From positions 1 to 24,677 of the IMG/VR virus record IMGVR_UViG_3300009132_000035: 24,677 bases of DNA. One strand, written 5' to 3'. The DNA comes from a virus. The notes beneath the pieces are model-generated. The model saw only the letters and a program-made list of their open reading frames with translations, had not been told where the DNA came from and did not search any database. Both the position numbers and the translations under genes were made by a program. How positions within the stretch are numbered: position 1 is the stretch's first letter; each line of letters opens with the position of its first letter. This document shows positions 12,335-24,672 of this stretch, piece after piece.

Positions 12335-14116
12335 TTATGACAGCATATATTCGCTATTTAGAATCTCTTTAGCTAAATTAGTAGAATGTTTTGTAACAGG
12401 TACATAATTACCACTAATTTCACTAAGTATGTCAGATAACAGATCACTATTAGCAATCTCTGCTAGTATTTCTCTGTATGTTTGACACACTATTTGTAGA
12501 TAATCTGGACTAAATACGAAACAATCATGGATATGGACAAGTTGGATTTTGAGAGCATGGCATCGTCTAACCATTTCTCTAGCTACATAGCCATCAACAC
12601 TATGTACTATATTAGCAACTAAACTTCTATAGTTCTCAGAAGGTTGTTGCTTGTTATATCTATATGTGAATGTACGATGATTAAGCTCATCAACTTCAAT
12701 ACGGATATTGGTCATTTCAGTAACTGGTACTTTAGCTACATGACCATCTGGTAATGTCCACATATGCACATCAGAGTCAAAATCCCAATATTCATTGATA
12801 GCCTCCATAACATCTAACGCACCTGGTAAAGTATCGTCTAATGACGCGTAAAATGCCTCTAATTGAGGTTCTGTGAATGTTTCTTTGGGATTAGCTTCTG
12901 AGTTATAGAATGTAGTCATAACAGGTTTCTTGACATCGCTACGTGTTACTTGGTCTATAGGTTTTAGTAGCTTATTCATTTTGTCTGTAACAGATTGATA
13001 GATATCTTCTCTATTACCTGTATTAACCATATTACAGGCTTTAGCAGTCACTTTACAACCTGATAATGCAGACATAACTTGTAAACCTGATGCAGTTGCG
13101 TCAATACTCATAACATAACCAGTAGGAATACCTTTCTTACTGTCTAAGTATGCTTGTATTGCTTTAGAACCTAGTATTGGTTCGTCAAATGTATCAATAT
13201 CAAAGTTTAGTTGTTGATTAAACCAATTGATACGCTCTGACCAAGTTAGTTTGTCTTGTCCAGCATGACCAGCAATAGCAATCTTAAGGTTATCCAGGTT
13301 GTTAACTACTTTCTTATTGAATAACGATAGTAATGCTTTACCATACTCATTAGATTGTACATTTAGGTCATAACCTGATGAGTATGATCTACCTCGTTTG
13401 TCATAACGCCATACGAAATAGAATGGTTTACCAAAGTAATCACGAACTACACGCTCGAATTGCTCACTATCCATAGCTTCATTAGTATTAACGAAGTTAG
13501 TATAGGTTGGTATGTCTATTGTCCAAGCAACTGATTGTAATAGATTGAGTGCATCATAAGCTTGAGGCTTGTTGTGATGAGTGCCTTTGCCTAGAATAAT
13601 AGATTTACGCTCCCATAACCATCCACCGTCTGTATTGGATATCCAATCATTAGGTTTCTGTAGCATTGGTGGCAAGTATTGTAATACATTTAGTTTATCA
13701 ACAGTGTCACGTGTCAATTGATATTTCGGTACTATCTCAGTACTATCGTCATTTAACTTAATATCATATAATTTACCATGACATATAGATAGTATTTCAG
13801 CACCTGTTTTAACTGCATTGATTTGATTACGATAACCTAGCGTCATACCTAATTCAGTAGCTATACCTTGAATAGGTTTTGGTCTAGGTGATGATAGTAC
13901 TATAGCTAATATACTATTTACTATCTCAGCAGTTTCAGGTAGGTTGTTGACACGGTCTTGTTTAGACTGATAATAAGTATTTGATCTATACTTATGTATT
14001 GCTAAACTAAGTGCTTGAGTAATTTTTGTCGGTATTTCATCTAATACATCATGTAGTATTAGGTTGTTACGCATTCTCTTTGAGTATTCCAACTCGTTGT
14101 GTAATTGAATATTCAT
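12335..14116 (-). CDS. single-subunit (T7-like) DNA-directed RNA polymerase, compact
   Basis: 593 residues. The polymerase core motifs are clear: YDKRGRSY (matching T7 DWRGRVY), SIDATASGLQ with D339, KKPVMTTFYN with K397 and Y404 (T7 K631, Y639), IVHSVDG, and IHDCF with D531 (T7 D812). T7 RNA polymerase has 883 residues; nearly all the shortfall lies before the first core motif, so the promoter-binding/RNA-exit N-terminal domain is reduced or absent. That recalls the N4 RNAP II enzyme, which is split in two chains and needs helper proteins. It would transcribe later phage genes. I chose ATG 14116, five bases after GGAG; an in-frame ATG at 14152 lies too close to its own GGAG. An intrinsic terminator follows. 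Confidence 0.93.
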   Translation of the reverse strand: MNIQLHNELEYSKRMRNNLILHDVLDEIPTKITQALSLAIHKYRSNTYYQSKQDRVNNLPETAEIVNSILAIVLSSPRPKPIQGIATELGMTLGYRNQINAVKTGAEILSICHGKLYDIKLNDDSTEIVPKYQLTRDTVDKLNVLQYLPPMLQKPNDWISNTDGGWLWERKSIILGKGTHHNKPQAYDALNLLQSVAWTIDIPTYTNFVNTNEAMDSEQFERVVRDYFGKPFYFVWRYDKRGRSYSSGYDLNVQSNEYGKALLSLFNKKVVNNLDNLKIAIAGHAGQDKLTWSERINWFNQQLNFDIDTFDEPILGSKAIQAYLDSKKGIPTGYVMSIDATASGLQVMSALSGCKVTAKACNMVNTGNREDIYQSVTDKMNKLLKPIDQVTRSDVKKPVMTTFYNSEANPKETFTEPQLEAFYASLDDTLPGALDVMEAINEYWDFDSDVHMWTLPDGHVAKVPVTEMTNIRIEVDELNHRTFTYRYNKQQPSENYRSLVANIVHSVDGYVAREMVRRCHALKIQLVHIHDCFVFSPDYLQIVCQTYREILAEIANSDLLSDILSEISGNYVPVTKHSTNLAKEILNSEYMLS

Positions 14117-14438
14117 AGTGTCTCCGTTAATAAGTGAATAATACATAGACATACTCCAACTAGTATCGGCATGCCTATGTATTAGTTTTGTTAGGGTTGG
14201 TTACCTAACTCTTCGGGTTTAGTTTCGGACACCGCAATATATGTTTACGGAACTAGCAGTAAGTGCTTCGCAATGGTATCCTATTTGAGGTTTAGCGTCT
14301 TAGATATCTATTAGACTACTTTCGATTACTATCTTGGTACTATCTACAGATATAAGCGTTATTGAAGTGACGCTTACACTTAGTACAGGTCATGCATTAA
14401 CTCAATACTACATGACCTGCACATATGATTATAAACTA
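14117..14438 (-). other. gene-free leader before the RNA polymerase, with several hairpins
   Basis: No open frame with a ribosome site was found in these 322 bases. It holds several inverted repeats: GTTAGG/CCTAAC (14190-14209), the palindromes GGCATGCC (14168-14175) and TAGATATCTA (14301-14310), TAAGCGT/ACGCTTA (14353-14376) and CAGGTCATG/CATGACCTG (14386-14419). None is followed by a T-run. It may be a structured 5' leader, a processed non-coding RNA or a promoter region for the polymerase gene. A weak leftward TATATT (14242-14237) lacks a convincing -35 partner. Confidence 0.4.
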
Positions 14439-18147: not shown

Positions 18148-18368
18148 AAAAACATATGTTTAGAAGAAAAACTAAATTAAAACCAGCTAAAAAATGTGTA
18201 CACTTCTTTAAGTGTATGTGGGAAACTGACTGTGAGGAGCTAGCAAGAGCAGAACTTGCAGAGTTATCACCTGTAGCTTTAGAAGCAATGGGCAGAGCTA
18301 GAGGAATTGAGTTAGATAGACGTAAGAAAAAGTCTACATTAATCAATGAGTTATACGAGGTAATGTGA
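18144..18368 (+). CDS. small basic protein with SAP-like domain
   Basis: A 74-residue protein. The N-terminal third is strongly basic (KKHMFRRKTKLKPAKK) and contains two cysteines. The C-terminal part, LSPVALEAMGRARGIELD then KKKSTLINELYEV, resembles SAP/Rho-N-like two-helix DNA-binding motifs. It starts by ATGA overlap with the lipoprotein gene, with AGGAG eight bases ahead, and its last bases overlap the GTG of the terminase. It may help the terminase contact DNA; that is inferred from domain type and position. Confidence 0.7.
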   Translation: MKKHMFRRKTKLKPAKKCVHFFKCMWETDCEELARAELAELSPVALEAMGRARGIELDRRKKKSTLINELYEVM

Positions 18369-19954
18369 AATTAGTAAAGAAAACTGTAGAAGAATGGTTA
18401 AACGACATCAACTACAGCGTTGATCCAAATTATGTACCTAGTGAATTCGCCCTCGAGTTTGTTAGTTTCATAAAGCTTGTAAATGGTGAACGCGGAGAAG
18501 AAAATGCTACTCCTGTCATCCATTACAAAATGTTAGACAATATAACGGGCAAAACACAGAATACAGTTAATATGTGTTCACGTGGATTAGCAAAGACTAC
18601 CATTCTTTCTGAATATCTAATACTATATTTAGCTGTATATGGCTCTATACCAGGCTTTGGCAATGTAGATTATGGCTTGTACGTGTCAGATTCTATAGAA
18701 AATGGTGTAAAAAAGATGCGTTACAGGCTAGAAAGACGCTGTCAACACAGTGAATTCTTAAAAACTTACTTGCATTCGTTCCGATTTACAGATATTCGCT
18801 GGTATTTTAAGAATAAACAAGGAAAAGAGCTCGTTGTCACAGGACATGGTGCTAAAACTGGTGTTCGTGGAACAGTAGAACTAAACACGAGACCACAATT
18901 AGCTATGTTGGATGACTTATTGTCTGATGATGACGCTCGTTCGCCCACAATTATCGAAAGTGTAGAGAATACTGTGTATTCTGCTATCGATTATGCACTG
19001 CATCCTAGAAAACGTAAGGTAATTTGGTCAGGAACTCCGTTTAATGCTAAAGACCCGTTGTATAAAGCAGTCGAATCTGGCGTATGGCACGTGTCTGTGT
19101 ACCCAGTTTGTGAAGAATTTCCTGTTGAACGTGAAAATTTTAGAGGTGCGTGGGAAGATAGGTTTGACTATGACTATGTTTTAGATCAATATACTAAATC
19201 TAAAGGTGCAGGTAAGTTAGATAGCTTTAACCAGGAATTAATGCTACGCATTATGTCTGAAGAAGAGCGTTTAATACAAGATAGCGATCTTACCTGGTAC
19301 AAGCATGCTAACGTAAAACAAAATATGGGAGCGTTTAACTTCTATATTACGACAGATTTTGCTACGAGCTCGAGAGAAAGTGCTGACTTTAGTACAATTA
19401 ATGTCTGGGCTTACAATAATAATGGTGATTGGCTGTGGGTAGATGGATTCTGTAAACGTGCATTGATGGACGAGTCAATGGATGCGTTATTCCAGTTAGC
19501 TCAAAAATATCGCCCACAAGAAGTAGGTATTGAGGTGACAGGACAGCAGGGGGGTTTTATATCTTGGATACAGAACGAACAAATGAATAGAAATATTTAT
19601 TTTACGTTAGCTACAGGTAAAGGTAAGAACTCACCAGGAATTAGACCTAACAAAGATAAGATGAGTCGATTCCAACAAATAGCATTACCTTTGTTTAAAG
19701 CAGGAAAAATATGGTTTCCAGAAGAATTAAGAGATTCTGATGAGTTAGCTGAAATGTTAATGGAGATTACCTTAGCAACTTATAAAGGATTTAAGTCTAA
19801 GCATGACGATCAATTAGATAATATATCTATGTTAGGTGAGTTTAATGCTTGGAAACCTAGCGAAGTGTCTTCAGGTGAATCTGGAGATGGTTCAATGTTA
19901 TGGGATGACGAAGAGGAGCCAGAGTCTTACGGTAGTAGTTCTTATTTTGTTTAA
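18365..19954 (+). CDS. terminase large subunit
   Basis: 529 residues. The ATPase half has a terminase-type Walker A, SRGLAKTT (72-79), Walker B MLDD (D183, D184), and SGTPF (222-226) as the coupling motif. The nuclease half has TTDFATS (D331), with D341 following, GIEVTG (E390) and KHDDQLD (D481, D482, D485), an RNase H-fold set of acidic residues. It drives DNA into proheads and cuts the concatemer. The acidic tail (WDDEEEPE) is typical of motor C-termini. The start is GTG 18365, overlapping the preceding stop as GTGA, with GAGG four bases ahead. The overall look is closest to N4-like and marine podovirus terminases. Confidence 0.95.
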   Translation: MKLVKKTVEEWLNDINYSVDPNYVPSEFALEFVSFIKLVNGERGEENATPVIHYKMLDNITGKTQNTVNMCSRGLAKTTILSEYLILYLAVYGSIPGFGNVDYGLYVSDSIENGVKKMRYRLERRCQHSEFLKTYLHSFRFTDIRWYFKNKQGKELVVTGHGAKTGVRGTVELNTRPQLAMLDDLLSDDDARSPTIIESVENTVYSAIDYALHPRKRKVIWSGTPFNAKDPLYKAVESGVWHVSVYPVCEEFPVERENFRGAWEDRFDYDYVLDQYTKSKGAGKLDSFNQELMLRIMSEEERLIQDSDLTWYKHANVKQNMGAFNFYITTDFATSSRESADFSTINVWAYNNNGDWLWVDGFCKRALMDESMDALFQLAQKYRPQEVGIEVTGQQGGFISWIQNEQMNRNIYFTLATGKGKNSPGIRPNKDKMSRFQQIALPLFKAGKIWFPEELRDSDELAEMLMEITLATYKGFKSKHDDQLDNISMLGEFNAWKPSEVSSGESGDGSMLWDDEEEPESYGSSSYFV

Positions 19955-20013: not shown

Positions 20014-20670
20014 ATGTATGTTTCCGACTATTTATCCCATGTTACAAAGGGAGAAGTTAAACAACTATATTTAAGTGATATAGGAACTGGTACTCCTAAT
20101 GCAACACAATCAGCAAATATCTCAACCCTTATTAGTTTTTTAAATGAAGCAAATTTAGAATTACATAAGCATTTTGGTTTAATACAAAAAGAATTAGTAC
20201 TAACTGACGTTACTAATAATTCATTACATAGTGTCCCAACAGATTTTTTATATGCTGTTAGCGCTGAATATGATGATGGAACTGAAGTTGCAATTAATAA
20301 TGAAAGAACTAAATATGTAGATAAAGTTGATGAAAATGTTTCTTTGTTATTCCCACACCCTTTTAAAATTTTAGTTAAAGGTACTGACGTATCTTTAAAA
20401 CGTGATGATATCAGTGTAGTATATGTTGCTGTTCCTCCAACTGTATCATTAACAACTGATTTCATAGACCTACCTCAAGTATACAACGATGCTATTTATA
20501 ACTATATAGCTTATAAAGCACACGCATCAGTTAAAGGTGATATGAAAGAAGAGAACAATACTTACTATTTAAGATATCAAGAAAGTCTTAGACACATTCG
20601 TATGATGGGACTTCACAATTCAGATAATTTAGATAGTAATGTTAAATTAACTGACCGAGGATTTGTCTAA
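20014..20670 (+). CDS. probable head-tail connector/adaptor protein
   Basis: 218 residues with no signal peptide. A helical N-terminus (ISTLISFLNEANLELHKHF), a beta-rich middle and a C-terminal helical segment (YNDAIYNYIAYKAHAS then NTYYLRYQESL) match the pattern of phage adaptor proteins such as the DUF6682 type, which bind below the portal. The family call is from general pattern, not from a catalytic motif. AGGA lies six bases before the ATG. It is the first gene after the promoter at 19959-19987 and is followed by beta-rich virion proteins. Confidence 0.6.
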   Translation: MYVSDYLSHVTKGEVKQLYLSDIGTGTPNATQSANISTLISFLNEANLELHKHFGLIQKELVLTDVTNNSLHSVPTDFLYAVSAEYDDGTEVAINNERTKYVDKVDENVSLLFPHPFKILVKGTDVSLKRDDISVVYVAVPPTVSLTTDFIDLPQVYNDAIYNYIAYKAHASVKGDMKEENNTYYLRYQESLRHIRMMGLHNSDNLDSNVKLTDRGFV

Positions 20671-21098
20671 TGTCTAATTTCCATTCATTTTCACCAAACG
20701 AATTAAATAGCGCGACAGTACAATACTATCCTACTATTGAATTAGTAGCTGGTGATAATCGACCTGTTTTGAATATTACTTTAAAAGATAGTAGTACAGC
20801 ATTATCAGGTCAAACGCTAGATGCAAATAATCATGCTACCTGGGCACTAATTGATCTATCAGGTGCTAGTCATGTCAAAATGAAGTTTAGAAAAATTGAT
20901 TCAACAACAATTATTGAAACAATTACTTGTTCAATTGTTAGTCCTGCATCAAATGGTAATGTCACAATGACGTGGTCTAATACTACTTTAAGTGGTGCAA
21001 ATGGAATGTATGAAGGTGAAATCACAATTACTTATAATGATGGTAGGATTCAAACTGTTAGAGATTTATTAAAGTTTGACGTAAGAGCAGGATTCTAA
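20670..21098 (+). CDS. beta-sandwich virion protein, BppU-N-like
   Basis: A 142-residue protein made of alternating strands: LNITLKDSSTAL, HVKMKFRK, ETITCSIV, GNVTMTW, MYEGEITITYNDG, LKFDVRAGF. This resembles the N-terminal domain of BppU-type baseplate upper proteins, which join receptor-binding fibres to the virion. Part of the resemblance is from memory. The ATG overlaps the preceding stop as TAATG, with GAGG nine bases ahead. Its neighbours are structural. It is probably a small tail or fibre-attachment subunit. Confidence 0.6.
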   Translation: MSNFHSFSPNELNSATVQYYPTIELVAGDNRPVLNITLKDSSTALSGQTLDANNHATWALIDLSGASHVKMKFRKIDSTTIIETITCSIVSPASNGNVTMTWSNTTLSGANGMYEGEITITYNDGRIQTVRDLLKFDVRAGF

Positions 21099-21099
21099 T

Positions 21100-22083
21100 A
21101 TGGCAGTCAGAGCAATTGTTAGTTTAAGTAAAACTAAAAATATTGTTTCAGCCACTAAACTAGAAGCAACATACTCGTATACAACGCCTGAACCTGTTTT
21201 ACTTATAAGCAGATTAGAAAGTCTTGCAGCATTAGATTATGACTCTATAAACCAATGGTTTACAGACGAATTACCTTTAAGTGAAGTTCTAGTTACAGCT
21301 TATAGTAAAAACGTAACTGATTCTGTTTCTGTACAGGAATTACAAGAACTTAATTTAGGATTATCAAAAACTGAAACTTTAAGTTTAACTGAAAGTTTTG
21401 CTAGAGCTATTACATTTAATAGAAATTTAACGGATGCATTTACGTTAGATGATGCAGCTAGTGTAGATAAAGATTACTATGGAGTTAAAGGTAATGTTGC
21501 ATCAATGCTTGATATTATCGGATTATCTCTTGATAAGATTGCTACAGACTCTTATACAGTAGGAGATATTTATAATTTAGCTGTAAATAAAGTAGTAACA
21601 GAAAATTTAAATATAATTGAAAACGCAGCAAAAGAAGTAAGTACAACTAAAACTGATTCGTTTTCAGTTAGTGAAGATGTAAATGTACATCCAAACTTAG
21701 GAAAAACAGATTCAATAAGTTTTTCAGATACACATTATGCAACACTAAGTAAAGTTGTAACTGATTCAATTACTTTACAAGAAAACTTTTCTAATGGTTT
21801 GAATGAAGTACTTGACAATTCATTTACATTTGGTGATAGTATAATATCGGAAATCAATAAAGTAATTACAGACGCATTTACTTTAGATGATAGTGCCTTA
21901 ATAGACAAAGACTATTTTGGTAATAAGGGAAATATTTGTACAGTGTCGGATGTGATAGCAGTAGCTGTTGCATATGCTAGAAGTTTTAGTGATTCTGTAA
22001 GTATTGGTGATTCAACAAGTGTTTCAAATATTTCAGGTAAGGTGCTCAATGGAGCATCTTTTAATAGAATAACATTAAACTAA
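21100..22083 (+). CDS. repetitive structural protein, 18-residue TDSFSL repeats
   Basis: 327 residues. From residue 73 to about 302 a motif of the form T-D-S-hydrophobic-S/T-hydrophobic recurs at 73, 91, 111, 149, 167, 185, 203, 221, 239, 257 and 297. Most steps are exactly 18 residues; the exceptions are 20, 38 and 40, where DKDYYGVKGN and DKDYFGNKGN insertions occur. The regular step suggests a beta-solenoid or stacked strand-turn fibre. The C-terminus is short and non-repetitive. AGGA lies seven bases before the ATG. It sits between tail-type genes, so it is most likely a fibre or tail-spike component. Confidence 0.7.
   Translation: MAVRAIVSLSKTKNIVSATKLEATYSYTTPEPVLLISRLESLAALDYDSINQWFTDELPLSEVLVTAYSKNVTDSVSVQELQELNLGLSKTETLSLTESFARAITFNRNLTDAFTLDDAASVDKDYYGVKGNVASMLDIIGLSLDKIATDSYTVGDIYNLAVNKVVTENLNIIENAAKEVSTTKTDSFSVSEDVNVHPNLGKTDSISFSDTHYATLSKVVTDSITLQENFSNGLNEVLDNSFTFGDSIISEINKVITDAFTLDDSALIDKDYFGNKGNICTVSDVIAVAVAYARSFSDSVSIGDSTSVSNISGKVLNGASFNRITLN
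21316..22005 (+). repeat. array encoding 18-residue protein repeats
   Basis: The coding array spans residues 73-302 of the repetitive structural protein. Consensus landmarks are T-D-S, a hydrophobic residue, S or T, a hydrophobic residue, then an acidic residue. The DNA copies have diverged, so repetition is clearer in the protein than in the bases, which argues for selection on structure. Confidence 0.75.
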
Positions 22084-22095
22084 AGGAGTTTAATA

Positions 22096-22521
22096 ATGAT
22101 ATCAGATGATTTAAAGTTAACAGGTAATCTGACTATTGCTGTAAATGATGAAATAGTTCAAGAAACCAAAAACTTAGTAGTAACAGCAGGTAAAAATTTT
22201 GTTGCATCAAGAATGAAAGATACAACAAAAGCAGCAATGACGCACATGGCAGTAGGAACAGGTACAACAGCTGCAGCAGCAGGAAATACTACCCTAGTAT
22301 CAGAAACTGATCGTAATGCGTTAACATCAACAACTGTAACTAACAACGAAATAGCATATGTTGCTACTTGGGCTGCAGGTGATGCAACTGCTGCATTAAC
22401 AGAAGCAGGCATTTTCAATGCATCATCAGGTGGTGATATGTTGTGTAGAACAGTATTTTCTGTAGTTAACAAAGGCGCAAGCGATAGCATGACTATTACT
22501 TGGACAGTAACTGTAAGTTAA
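22096..22521 (+). CDS. virion protein, tail-fibre-type
   Basis: A 141-residue protein rich in Thr, Ala and Val. A strand-rich N-terminus (GNLTIAVNDEIV) is followed by NLVVTAGKNFVASRM, then MAVGTGTTAAAAGNTTLVSE, a segment type common in small phage tail or fibre proteins. The C-terminal strands SMTITWTVTVS close the fold. GGAG lies eight bases before the ATG. It belongs to the virion cluster and ends one base before the next start. The precise role is unknown. Confidence 0.6.
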   Translation: MISDDLKLTGNLTIAVNDEIVQETKNLVVTAGKNFVASRMKDTTKAAMTHMAVGTGTTAAAAGNTTLVSETDRNALTSTTVTNNEIAYVATWAAGDATAALTEAGIFNASSGGDMLCRTVFSVVNKGASDSMTITWTVTVS

Positions 22522-22522
22522 G

Positions 22523-22876
22523 ATGGCAGTTAAATTTAGTAATAACGCTTCTGCTTTATTAGATGGAGCTATTACAAATTCAGCAACTTCAGTAGTACTG
22601 GATGATGTTTCAGAATTTCCGACATTATCAGGGAGCGATTACACATATGTTACGCTAGCAAATGCAGCAGCAACTAAAACTGAGATAGTTAAAGTTACAG
22701 GTATAAATACAGGAACAAAGACTTTAACTGTAGTTAGAGCTCAAGATGGTACTTCTGCACAAGCTTTTAGTGATGGTGACATGTGTGAATTAAGGTTAAC
22801 TGCAGCTTTGCTAACTGATAAAGTTAGTGAGGCTGAAGGTGACGGTGGAGTTGCAATGGCTATAGCATTAGGTTAG
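22523..22876 (+). CDS. small beta-rich virion protein
   Basis: 117 residues. The strands TSVVLDDVSEFP, YTYVTLAN, KTEIVKVTGI and KTLTVVRAQDGT form a compact beta domain like those in small tail or decoration proteins. The RAQDGTSAQAFSDGD turn is of a type I associate with phage tail genes. The ATG follows the previous stop by one base without a strong ribosome site, so translation is probably coupled. No enzymatic motif is seen. Confidence 0.6.
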   Translation: MAVKFSNNASALLDGAITNSATSVVLDDVSEFPTLSGSDYTYVTLANAAATKTEIVKVTGINTGTKTLTVVRAQDGTSAQAFSDGDMCELRLTAALLTDKVSEAEGDGGVAMAIALG

Positions 22877-23237: not shown

Positions 23238-23339
23238 ATGCCATACGGACCAGGAACTTACGGTAGTAAAAGAGGAAGACCTCCAGGTAAAAAGAAAAAA
23301 ACTAAAAAACGTACTACTAAAAAAAGGAGTAAGAAGTAA
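23238..23339 (+). CDS. 33-residue Lys/Arg-rich miniprotein
   Basis: The ATG at 23238 follows AGGAG by six bases, and the stop overlaps the next ATG as TAATG. The start MPYGPGTYGSKRGRPPG is followed by an almost pure basic tail. About 15 of 33 residues are Lys or Arg and none is acidic. The GRPPG core resembles an AT-hook. It is too basic to be a free enzyme; DNA or RNA binding, perhaps inside the capsid, is likely. The good ribosome site and tight spacing support it as a real gene. Confidence 0.7.
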   Translation: MPYGPGTYGSKRGRPPGKKKKTKKRTTKKRSKK

Positions 23340-23638
23340 TGGCTCGTAAATATAAATCTCCTGCGTGGACAAGAAAAGAAGGACAAAATCCAAAAGGTGG
23401 TTTAAATGCTAAAGGTAGAGCAAGTGCAAAAAAACAAGGTTCTAATTTAAAACGACCACTTAAAACAGGTACTAATCCTAGACGAGTATCATTTGCTGCT
23501 AGATTTGCAGGAATGAAAGGTCCAATGAAAGATAGCAAAGGTAGACCTACTCGTAAAGCATTAGCACTTAAAGCTTGGGGCTTTGGTTCTGTAGAAGCTG
23601 CAAGAAATTTTGCTAACAGGCATAAAAAGAAGAAATAA
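23339..23638 (+). CDS. basic protein, DUF6321-like
   Basis: 99 residues, about 29 basic and three acidic. The wording KYKSPAWTRKEGQNPKGGLN, then GRPTRKALALKAWGFGS and a final HKKKK, matches what I remember of DUF6321, a family of unknown function. It lies between two even smaller basic proteins, with GGAG six bases before its ATG. DNA binding or condensation in the virion is a reasonable guess from charge. No structural or catalytic motif identifies it further. Confidence 0.7.
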   Translation: MARKYKSPAWTRKEGQNPKGGLNAKGRASAKKQGSNLKRPLKTGTNPRRVSFAARFAGMKGPMKDSKGRPTRKALALKAWGFGSVEAARNFANRHKKKK

Positions 23639-23640
23639 TT

Positions 23641-23793
23641 ATGGCAAAACGAGGCTTATACGCAAACATCCATGCAAAACGTAAAAGAATTAAAGCAGGT
23701 TCTAAAGAGAGAATGAGGAAAAAAGGAGCTAAAGGCGCTCCTACTGCTAAACAGTTTAAACGTGCAGCTAAGACTGCAAAGAAGAGGAAATAA
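23641..23793 (+). CDS. 50-residue basic miniprotein
   Basis: The ATG at 23641 comes two bases after the preceding stop. The protein begins MAKRGLYANIHAKRKRIKAG and has about 21 basic residues and one acidic. Similar MAKRGLYANI-type small proteins are, from memory, common in phage genomes, with no assigned role. It forms a set with the 33- and 99-residue proteins upstream and overlaps nothing. The ribosome site for the next gene (GAGG) lies inside its last codons. Confidence 0.7.
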   Translation: MAKRGLYANIHAKRKRIKAGSKERMRKKGAKGAPTAKQFKRAAKTAKKRK

Positions 23794-23794
23794 T

Positions 23795-24121
23795 ATGCCT
23801 TATATTGGAAAGCAACCAGCAAGAGTCCCAGTCACTGCTGATGATATACCTAATGATAGTATTACAGCTGCTAAAATTCAAGACGGAGTTATTACTGCAG
23901 CAGATATAGGTGCAGATGCAGTTGGAATATCTGAATTAAGTGCAACAGGCTCTCCAAGCGCTACAACATTTTTACGAGGAGATAATACCTGGGCAGTAGC
24001 TGGTATTACTCAATTTCCTTTTTTTAAAGCTGACGGAAGTGCAGATAATATAGCAATAACTAACGGACAGTTTCCATTTTTTAAAGCAGATGGCACACAA
24101 GATAACATAGGAGTAACGTAA
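23795..24121 (+). CDS. tail-fibre-related protein with FPFFKADG repeats
   Basis: 108 residues. The N-terminus MPYIGKQPARVPVTADDIPN, then SITAAKIQDGVITAADIGADAVG, is the usual phage tail-fibre attachment-type sequence with strand-turn repeats. The segment ATTFLRGDNTWAV is also common in fibre proteins. The C-terminus carries two copies of QFPFFKADG-xx-DNI-xx-T, 19 residues apart (73-89 and 92-108). GAGG lies seven bases before ATG 23795. The next start overlaps the stop as TAATG. It may be a short fibre segment that joins the next protein. Confidence 0.65.
   Translation: MPYIGKQPARVPVTADDIPNDSITAAKIQDGVITAADIGADAVGISELSATGSPSATTFLRGDNTWAVAGITQFPFFKADGSADNIAITNGQFPFFKADGTQDNIGVT
24011..24118 (+). 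repeat. two copies encoding FPFFKADG-type units
   Basis: Two 19-residue-spaced units at the end of the tail-fibre-related gene. The bases differ at many third positions, so the repeat is old rather than a recent slippage product. Confidence 0.6.
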
Positions 24122-24672
24122 TGGCAGCCAAAATACCAGTAAAAGCAATATTTACAGGATCAGACGTAACATCATTAGGAGAATTTGCAAGTAGTGATAC
24201 TATTAATGGTAGTTATCTTACTGATGGCACAGTCACTGCAGCAAAATTAGCAGCAGATACAGCTACTCAAGCAGAACTAGATGCAGTATCTAATGCTTCA
24301 TTAGCTAAAGCTGGCGGAACAATGACAGGAACGTTAGTAGCTAAAGTAGCAACAACAGCAACAGACACTGATACATCTAATACAGGAAATATTACTTTAG
24401 ATTTTAGTGCTAATCAAAATTTTGTACTAACACTAACAGGCAATATAACATTAGTAAATCCTTCTACAGAAGCTGTAGGACAATCAGGATTTATAGCGTT
24501 TTTGCAAGACTCAACTGGCAGCAGAACGGTAAGTTTGGGAACTGACTATGAGACTGCTGGAGCAGCAGGTCTAACTCTTACATCAACAGCATCAGCAACT
24601 GATTTAGTTCCTTACTTAGTTGTTGCAAGTAACAGAATTTTATTAGGAACACCACAACTGGCGTTTGCATAA
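24121..24672 (+). CDS. tail-fibre protein
   Basis: 183 residues. DGTVTAAKLAADTATQAELD is a fibre-type segment, followed by ASLAKAGGTMTGTL, a motif widespread in phage tail-fibre and collar proteins. The C-terminal half is beta-rich (ITLDFSANQNFVLTLTGNIT and GFIAFLQDSTGS) and resembles a fibre knob or trimer domain. GGAG lies seven bases before the ATG. It probably forms part of the receptor-binding apparatus together with the preceding gene product. The stop overlaps another ATG at 24672. Confidence 0.75.
   Translation: MAAKIPVKAIFTGSDVTSLGEFASSDTINGSYLTDGTVTAAKLAADTATQAELDAVSNASLAKAGGTMTGTLVAKVATTATDTDTSNTGNITLDFSANQNFVLTLTGNITLVNPSTEAVGQSGFIAFLQDSTGSRTVSLGTDYETAGAAGLTLTSTASATDLVPYLVVASNRILLGTPQLAFA

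Follow-up and report, generated by a model that had tools for sequence, protein, structure and literature searches.

What does a phage use a protein for that repeats one short motif time after time? The question is raised by an ORF near the head-to-tail adaptor gene of a marine phage, within a window (the whole stretch of DNA analysed here, 24,677 nucleotides) that is a 24.7-kb fragment without most of the structural genes. Most likely, the encoded protein is a stiff tail arm, the length of which shifts quickly between close relatives through the gain and loss of units.

An array of 18-residue units between two caps

The 327-aa ORF contains 10 strict TDSFSL-type motifs, as compared to a mean of 0.2 and a maximum of 3 in 2000 shuffles. 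They start at residues 73, 91, 111, 149, 167, 185, 203, 221, 257, and 297, and the span from the first to the last (nt 21316 to 22005) coincides exactly with the stretch that an earlier note on this DNA had singled out. BLOSUM autocorrelation of the protein gives peaks at lags 18, 36, and 54, plus one at 146. Both the motif count against the shuffles and the series of lags 18/36/54 thus confirm the exact 18-residue periodicity described in that note. The register of the units was established with an 18-position PSSM/profile, iterated over 43 non-redundant relatives. This profile locates 14 contiguous units, starting at residues 48, 66, 84, 104, 124, 142, 160, 178, 196, 214, 232, 250, 270, and 290; the array is therefore larger than the approximately 11 motif copies first proposed, although the repetition itself, with its 10 strict copies, was correctly seen. 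The steps between units are 18, 18, 20, 20, seven times 18, 20, and 20, so that additions of two residues are the sole breaks in the register.

Two DKDYxGxKGN motifs, at residues 123 and 269 and hence 146 residues apart, had been taken for insertions that break the array. The profile places both stretches in register as divergent units, KDYYGVKGNVASMLD and KDYFGNKGNICTVSD being units themselves: the hydrophobic residues at positions 3, 11, and 13 and the acidic residue at position 15 are kept, while the usual K-x-x-TD segment is replaced. The two additional residues are found in the unit before the KDYxGxKGN unit (DAFTLDDSAL+ID). Such +2 joints (DAFTLDDSALID/KDYxGNKGN) occur in nearly all relatives with spacings of mostly 18n+2 or 18n+4, and the distance of 146 residues (18x8+2) therefore has no special meaning. 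What remains of the idea of marked positions along a shaft is the recurrence of the joints; they are not insertions, since the stretches in question are repeat units. The array is flanked by two caps. The N-terminal one is 47 aa long in the window protein versus approximately 39 aa in most relatives; the C-terminal one measures 20 aa both here and in most of the relatives, and closes with a motif like LNGASFNRITLN.

Table 1. Coordinates of the repeat protein gene, its parts, and its neighbours in the window.
Feature	Position (nt)	Strand	Remarks
N4-like RNA polymerase	12335..14152	-	phrog_2051/2166
Terminase large subunit	18365..19954	+	phrog_38
Head-to-tail adaptor	20014..20670	+	phrog_2125 / SU10_adaptor / N4 30-kDa (gp67) type
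Upstream partner gene	20670..21098	+	142 aa; weak Ig-like similarity; with repeat gene in 61/64 loci
Repeat-protein ORF	21100..22083	+	327 aa; family of 65 distinct ORFs at IMG/VR loci
N-terminal cap	21100..21240	+	residues 1-47 (MAVRAIVSL...); RA(T/S)I start conserved in relatives
Array of 14 contiguous units	21241..22020	+	residues 48-307; profile; consensus phi-x-phi-x-[K/R]-x-phi-[TS]-D-S-phi-T-phi-S-[D/E]-xxx
Joint 1	21409..21522	+	residues 104-141; units ITFNRNLTDAFTLDDAASVD + KDYYGVKGNVASMLDIIG, +2 residues; profile
Joint 2	21847..21966	+	residues 250-289; units SEINKVITDAFTLDDSALID + KDYFGNKGNICTVSDVIAVA; 146 residues past joint 1; profile
C-terminal cap	22021..22080	+	20 aa; ends LNGASFNRITLN; LN/FN/LN at spacing 5
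Downstream partner gene	22096..22521	+	phrog_5417 / tail-collar-fibre N-terminal-like; with repeat gene in 53/64 loci
Tail-fibre N-terminal-domain-like gene	22523..22876	+	phrog_8469 residues 1-105

The number of units varies within a conserved family

Scans of IMG/VR yielded 65 distinct family ORFs of about 170 to 764 aa, some of which end at contig ends; a scan with a degenerate repeat pattern added only two further loci. Among the 43 non-redundant relatives the number of units ranges from about 5 to 35, at a fixed step between conserved caps. The step is either 18 (424 cases) or 20 residues (270 cases), odd steps being rare; these counts are not independent events, since many of the steps of 20 residues descend from one and the same joint, but the even-step rule is real in spite of this. 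An alignment of units of mixed length (MAFFT) opened large gaps and was discarded.

In phages with a terminase 91-97% identical to that of the window, the repeat ORF, measured from stop to stop, is 197, 203, 327, 332, 335, 336, or 427 aa long. The adaptor ORF (220-227 aa) and the terminase (529-534 aa) are by comparison nearly constant in length, which indicates that array length evolves at a far higher rate than the remainder of the module. The step of this change can be a single unit, as L026 has one 18-aa unit more than L022, the two copies being identical at 44 of 54 nt. Comparison with the closest relatives gives dN/dS ratios of 0.09-0.16 for the repeat ORF, and other tested pairs reach values of up to 0.45; purifying selection acts on the repeat as a protein-level array. 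Viruses are known to vary their reach by means of fibre shafts built from repeats, and the rapid change in array length would fit a structure that determines how far the virus extends to its host. If arm length changes by whole units in an otherwise near-constant module, these phages would offer a natural experiment in host adsorption.

Some relatives depart from the common architecture. One (L102:12422-13465) has an insert of approximately 100 residues, containing Gly and Cys, between the N-terminal cap and the array. Three long relatives (L013, L015, and L104) have internal stretches resembling the C-terminal LN-type motif where the step is 39, 47, or 66, and look as if arrays had been fused. 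A further member (L106:4330-5985) is found on IMGVR_UViG_2693429955, a record with a name form unlike those of metagenome-derived UViGs.

Structure of the unit and comparison with known folds

Positions 1, 3, 7, 11, and 13 of the unit are hydrophobic. In a Fourier analysis, the aliphatic/aromatic pattern has its greatest power at 180 degrees, as in the alternation of a β-strand; the Kyte-Doolittle pattern lacks a peak there, since the odd positions are used by charged residues as well. Over 803 units, K/R is found at position 5 in 523 and at position 7 in 209, at both in 8 and at neither in 63, while D/E is present at position 15 in 98% and at position 9 in 81%. For the full-length protein, the AlphaFold model based on 29 aligned sequences was unusable (pLDDT 35). 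A model of five units (residues 178-267, 48 in-register rows) reached a pLDDT of 69, that is, a monomer fragment of middling confidence, and consists of four strands of approximately 15 residues, one per unit, joined by turns of 2-3 residues. The 5-unit model and the residue pattern support a β-rich unit; its exact fold and oligomeric state are less certain.

The earlier note had suggested an undescribed β-solenoid or fibre repeat. The fibre-like part of this proposal agrees with the genomic context, the variation in unit number, the β alternation, and the lack of a Pfam or PDB match, while structure prediction lends no support to the solenoid. A monomeric β-solenoid with one coil per 18 residues would account for the length of the units, the alternating hydrophobics, the conserved Asp at likely corners, and the tolerated duplication of a single unit. 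However, the 5-unit model has one long strand per unit and short turns, not coils made up of several short strands, and the failure of the full-length monomer may be read as mild evidence against a self-standing solenoid. Furthermore, the side-chain volumes at the same position of neighbouring units are practically uncorrelated (mean diagonal z 0.29), with no sign of in-register stacking. Searches with the 5-unit model (Foldseek and VIA-align) returned no significant fold match; solenoids were not among the top rows, although this by itself is no proof either way. Taken together, we regard the solenoid as unlikely. The top rows were matches to gasdermin, perforin, complement, and phage coat proteins, which we rejected as generic antiparallel sheets (E >=0.02 or Z <9).

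An already described family with this unit was also looked for. The closest family in the profile libraries, and the sole one, is PHROG 12240 (phrog_12240), of unknown function, which is matched by the window protein (E 3e-7) and by 20 of 29 family members (best E 3e-12); the match extends over a part of the protein, and the library gives for this family no function, structure, or repeat description. In Pfam-A the best score of the window protein was 14.3 bits, for Int_EF-hand, far under the gathering threshold of 29, and this similarity was rejected; the best E-value of the 29 members was 0.0086, none being convincing. A PDB profile search with the repeat matched no solved structure, so that the unit is without a match both in Pfam and among solved structures. 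Moreover, tblastn searches of 50,697 phage records gave no match for the window protein or the relative L018, and the consensus unit gave one at chance level (E 3); among 84,980 bacterial and archaeal genomes no match was confirmed, and searches of the literature yielded no description of this repeat.

The adenovirus-type triple β-spiral, with a 15-residue unit and a conserved Gly/Pro turn, is a shaft whose length is set by the copy number of its repeat. The array of the window resembles it as a fibrous β repeat in which copy number would set length, and we use it as a working analogy. On the other hand, the period is 18/20 and not the 15 of the adenovirus/reovirus spiral, and no position is dominated by Gly or Pro (Gly <=0.18 and Pro <=0.06 at every unit position, among the residues listed for the 803 units). 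Most likely, this is a new repeat family forming a known kind of structure, namely a length-variable β shaft of the tail. Receptor-binding fibre or appendage proteins are known in N4-like phages (N4 gp65/gp66, DEV gp53 and gp54-56, B2 gp48/gp49), and the Schitoviridae with solved virions carry other fibre proteins (PMC12892993, PMC11654681). Compared with these fibres, the repeat protein has no sequence match to any solved structure.

The repeat gene in the tail module of an N4-like phage

The gene for an N4-like RNA polymerase places the phage of the window among the N4-like viruses (Schitoviridae), and the N4 gp67-type tail/adaptor gene and the terminase agree with this; DNA polymerase and primase genes are present as well. 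A gene for the giant virion RNA polymerase (vRNAP) was not seen in the 24.7-kb fragment, where most structural genes are missing. The repeat gene is located in the structural operon, 3′ of the terminase and of the adaptor, between two partner genes that accompany it at most loci (Table 1). Many of the loci devoid of the downstream partner end before the position at which it would lie, and the two loci found by the repeat pattern alone, one of which has no KDY unit, both carry this partner downstream. This linkage is the best clue to function: the repeat protein probably acts jointly with the 22096-type protein at the tail.

The unit HMM matches many homologues of the downstream partner weakly (E 0.04-1), and their last strand, NKGASDSMTITWTV, is unit-like. 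In the window, the C-terminal strand of the partner (22468-22518, +), NKGASDSMTITWTVTVS, resembles one 18-residue unit.

A related arrangement in siphophages

Homologues of the downstream partner were found in sequenced isolates, among them phages of Achromobacter, Burkholderia, and Aeromonas, the siphophage proteins being 29-48% identical to that of the window (E 1e-15 or better). In Achromobacter phages vB_Ade_ART and emuu_LB7, in Burkholderia phage BcepGomr, and in phage Simon, the gene order is tape measure, unit-bearing protein, and partner homologue, directly adjoining, and the C-terminus of the post-tape-measure protein contains similar units 18-20 residues apart. The HMM of the marine unit, searched in a database of 755 ORFs, gives modest scores for these proteins (E 1.9e-5 for BcepGomr, 0.0012 for emuu_LB7, and 0.007 for ART and Simon), whereas no repeat-unit match was obtained in phiA008 and Iggy. 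With a marine-only unit profile, the siphophage proteins outrank every ORF of the retrieved loci, one missed family member excepted, and the next-best unrelated-looking matches are the partner proteins.

The siphophage proteins thus share with the window both the spacing of the units and the partner family directly downstream. Unlike the window protein, they carry few units on an N-terminal tail-protein domain and are encoded in a siphophage tail module with a tape measure; the sequence similarity is weak, and that of the repeats could be convergent. The shared partner gene ties together like modules in N4-like podophages and siphophages, and offers a handle for naming unknowns in marine viromes. 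The arrangement also bears on the possibility that the protein belongs to the neck, collar, or head as a fibre (whisker) and is not part of the tail adsorption apparatus, as the proximity to the head-to-tail adaptor gene and the resemblance of the partner to collar-fibre N-terminal domains might indicate. In the siphophages, however, the partner and the repeat are found between the tape measure and the tail fibre genes, that is, at the tail tip, and we consider a neck or head location improbable.

Proposed role of the repeat protein

We lean toward the reading that the product of the gene is a shaft of the virion, namely a β-rich fibrous array of 14 units between caps, encoded among the tail genes of an N4-like marine podophage, with the number of units setting the length of the arm. 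For this shaft we infer presence in the virion, the oligomeric state (probably a homotrimer), the capsid-facing end, and a receptor-related function. Most likely, the N-terminal cap would anchor the shaft to the tail near the adaptor, and the C-terminal cap would seat the downstream tail-collar/fibre-type partner or the products of the following fibre genes; arm length would then change as whole units are gained or lost. More tentatively, the repeat may represent an undescribed β-fibre fold in which each 18-residue unit contributes one strand of approximately 15 residues, the units share a ladder of K/R and D/E charges, and +2 joints are optional; together with one dedicated partner, it would serve as a length-adjustable tail arm in both podophages and siphophages. 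That the protein is a Ser/Thr/Asp-rich, flexible, and largely unfolded linker or sticky brush, as its polar composition and the low confidence of the full-length AlphaFold model might suggest, is very improbable in view of the conserved alternating hydrophobic, K, and D positions, the strict register, and the purifying selection, and linkers rarely hold an exact period.

Other features of the window

A DUF6321 gene (23339-23638, +) shows a protein identity of 93% and a DNA identity of 88-89% to the Methylophilales phages MEP401/402; apart from this gene, the window has no DNA-level match in phage records. This points to a recent transfer and gives a possible hint of the host. Finally, two ORFs in the region 23762-24672 have weak matches to tail-fibre or unknown phage families (phrog_18673 and phrog_4757).
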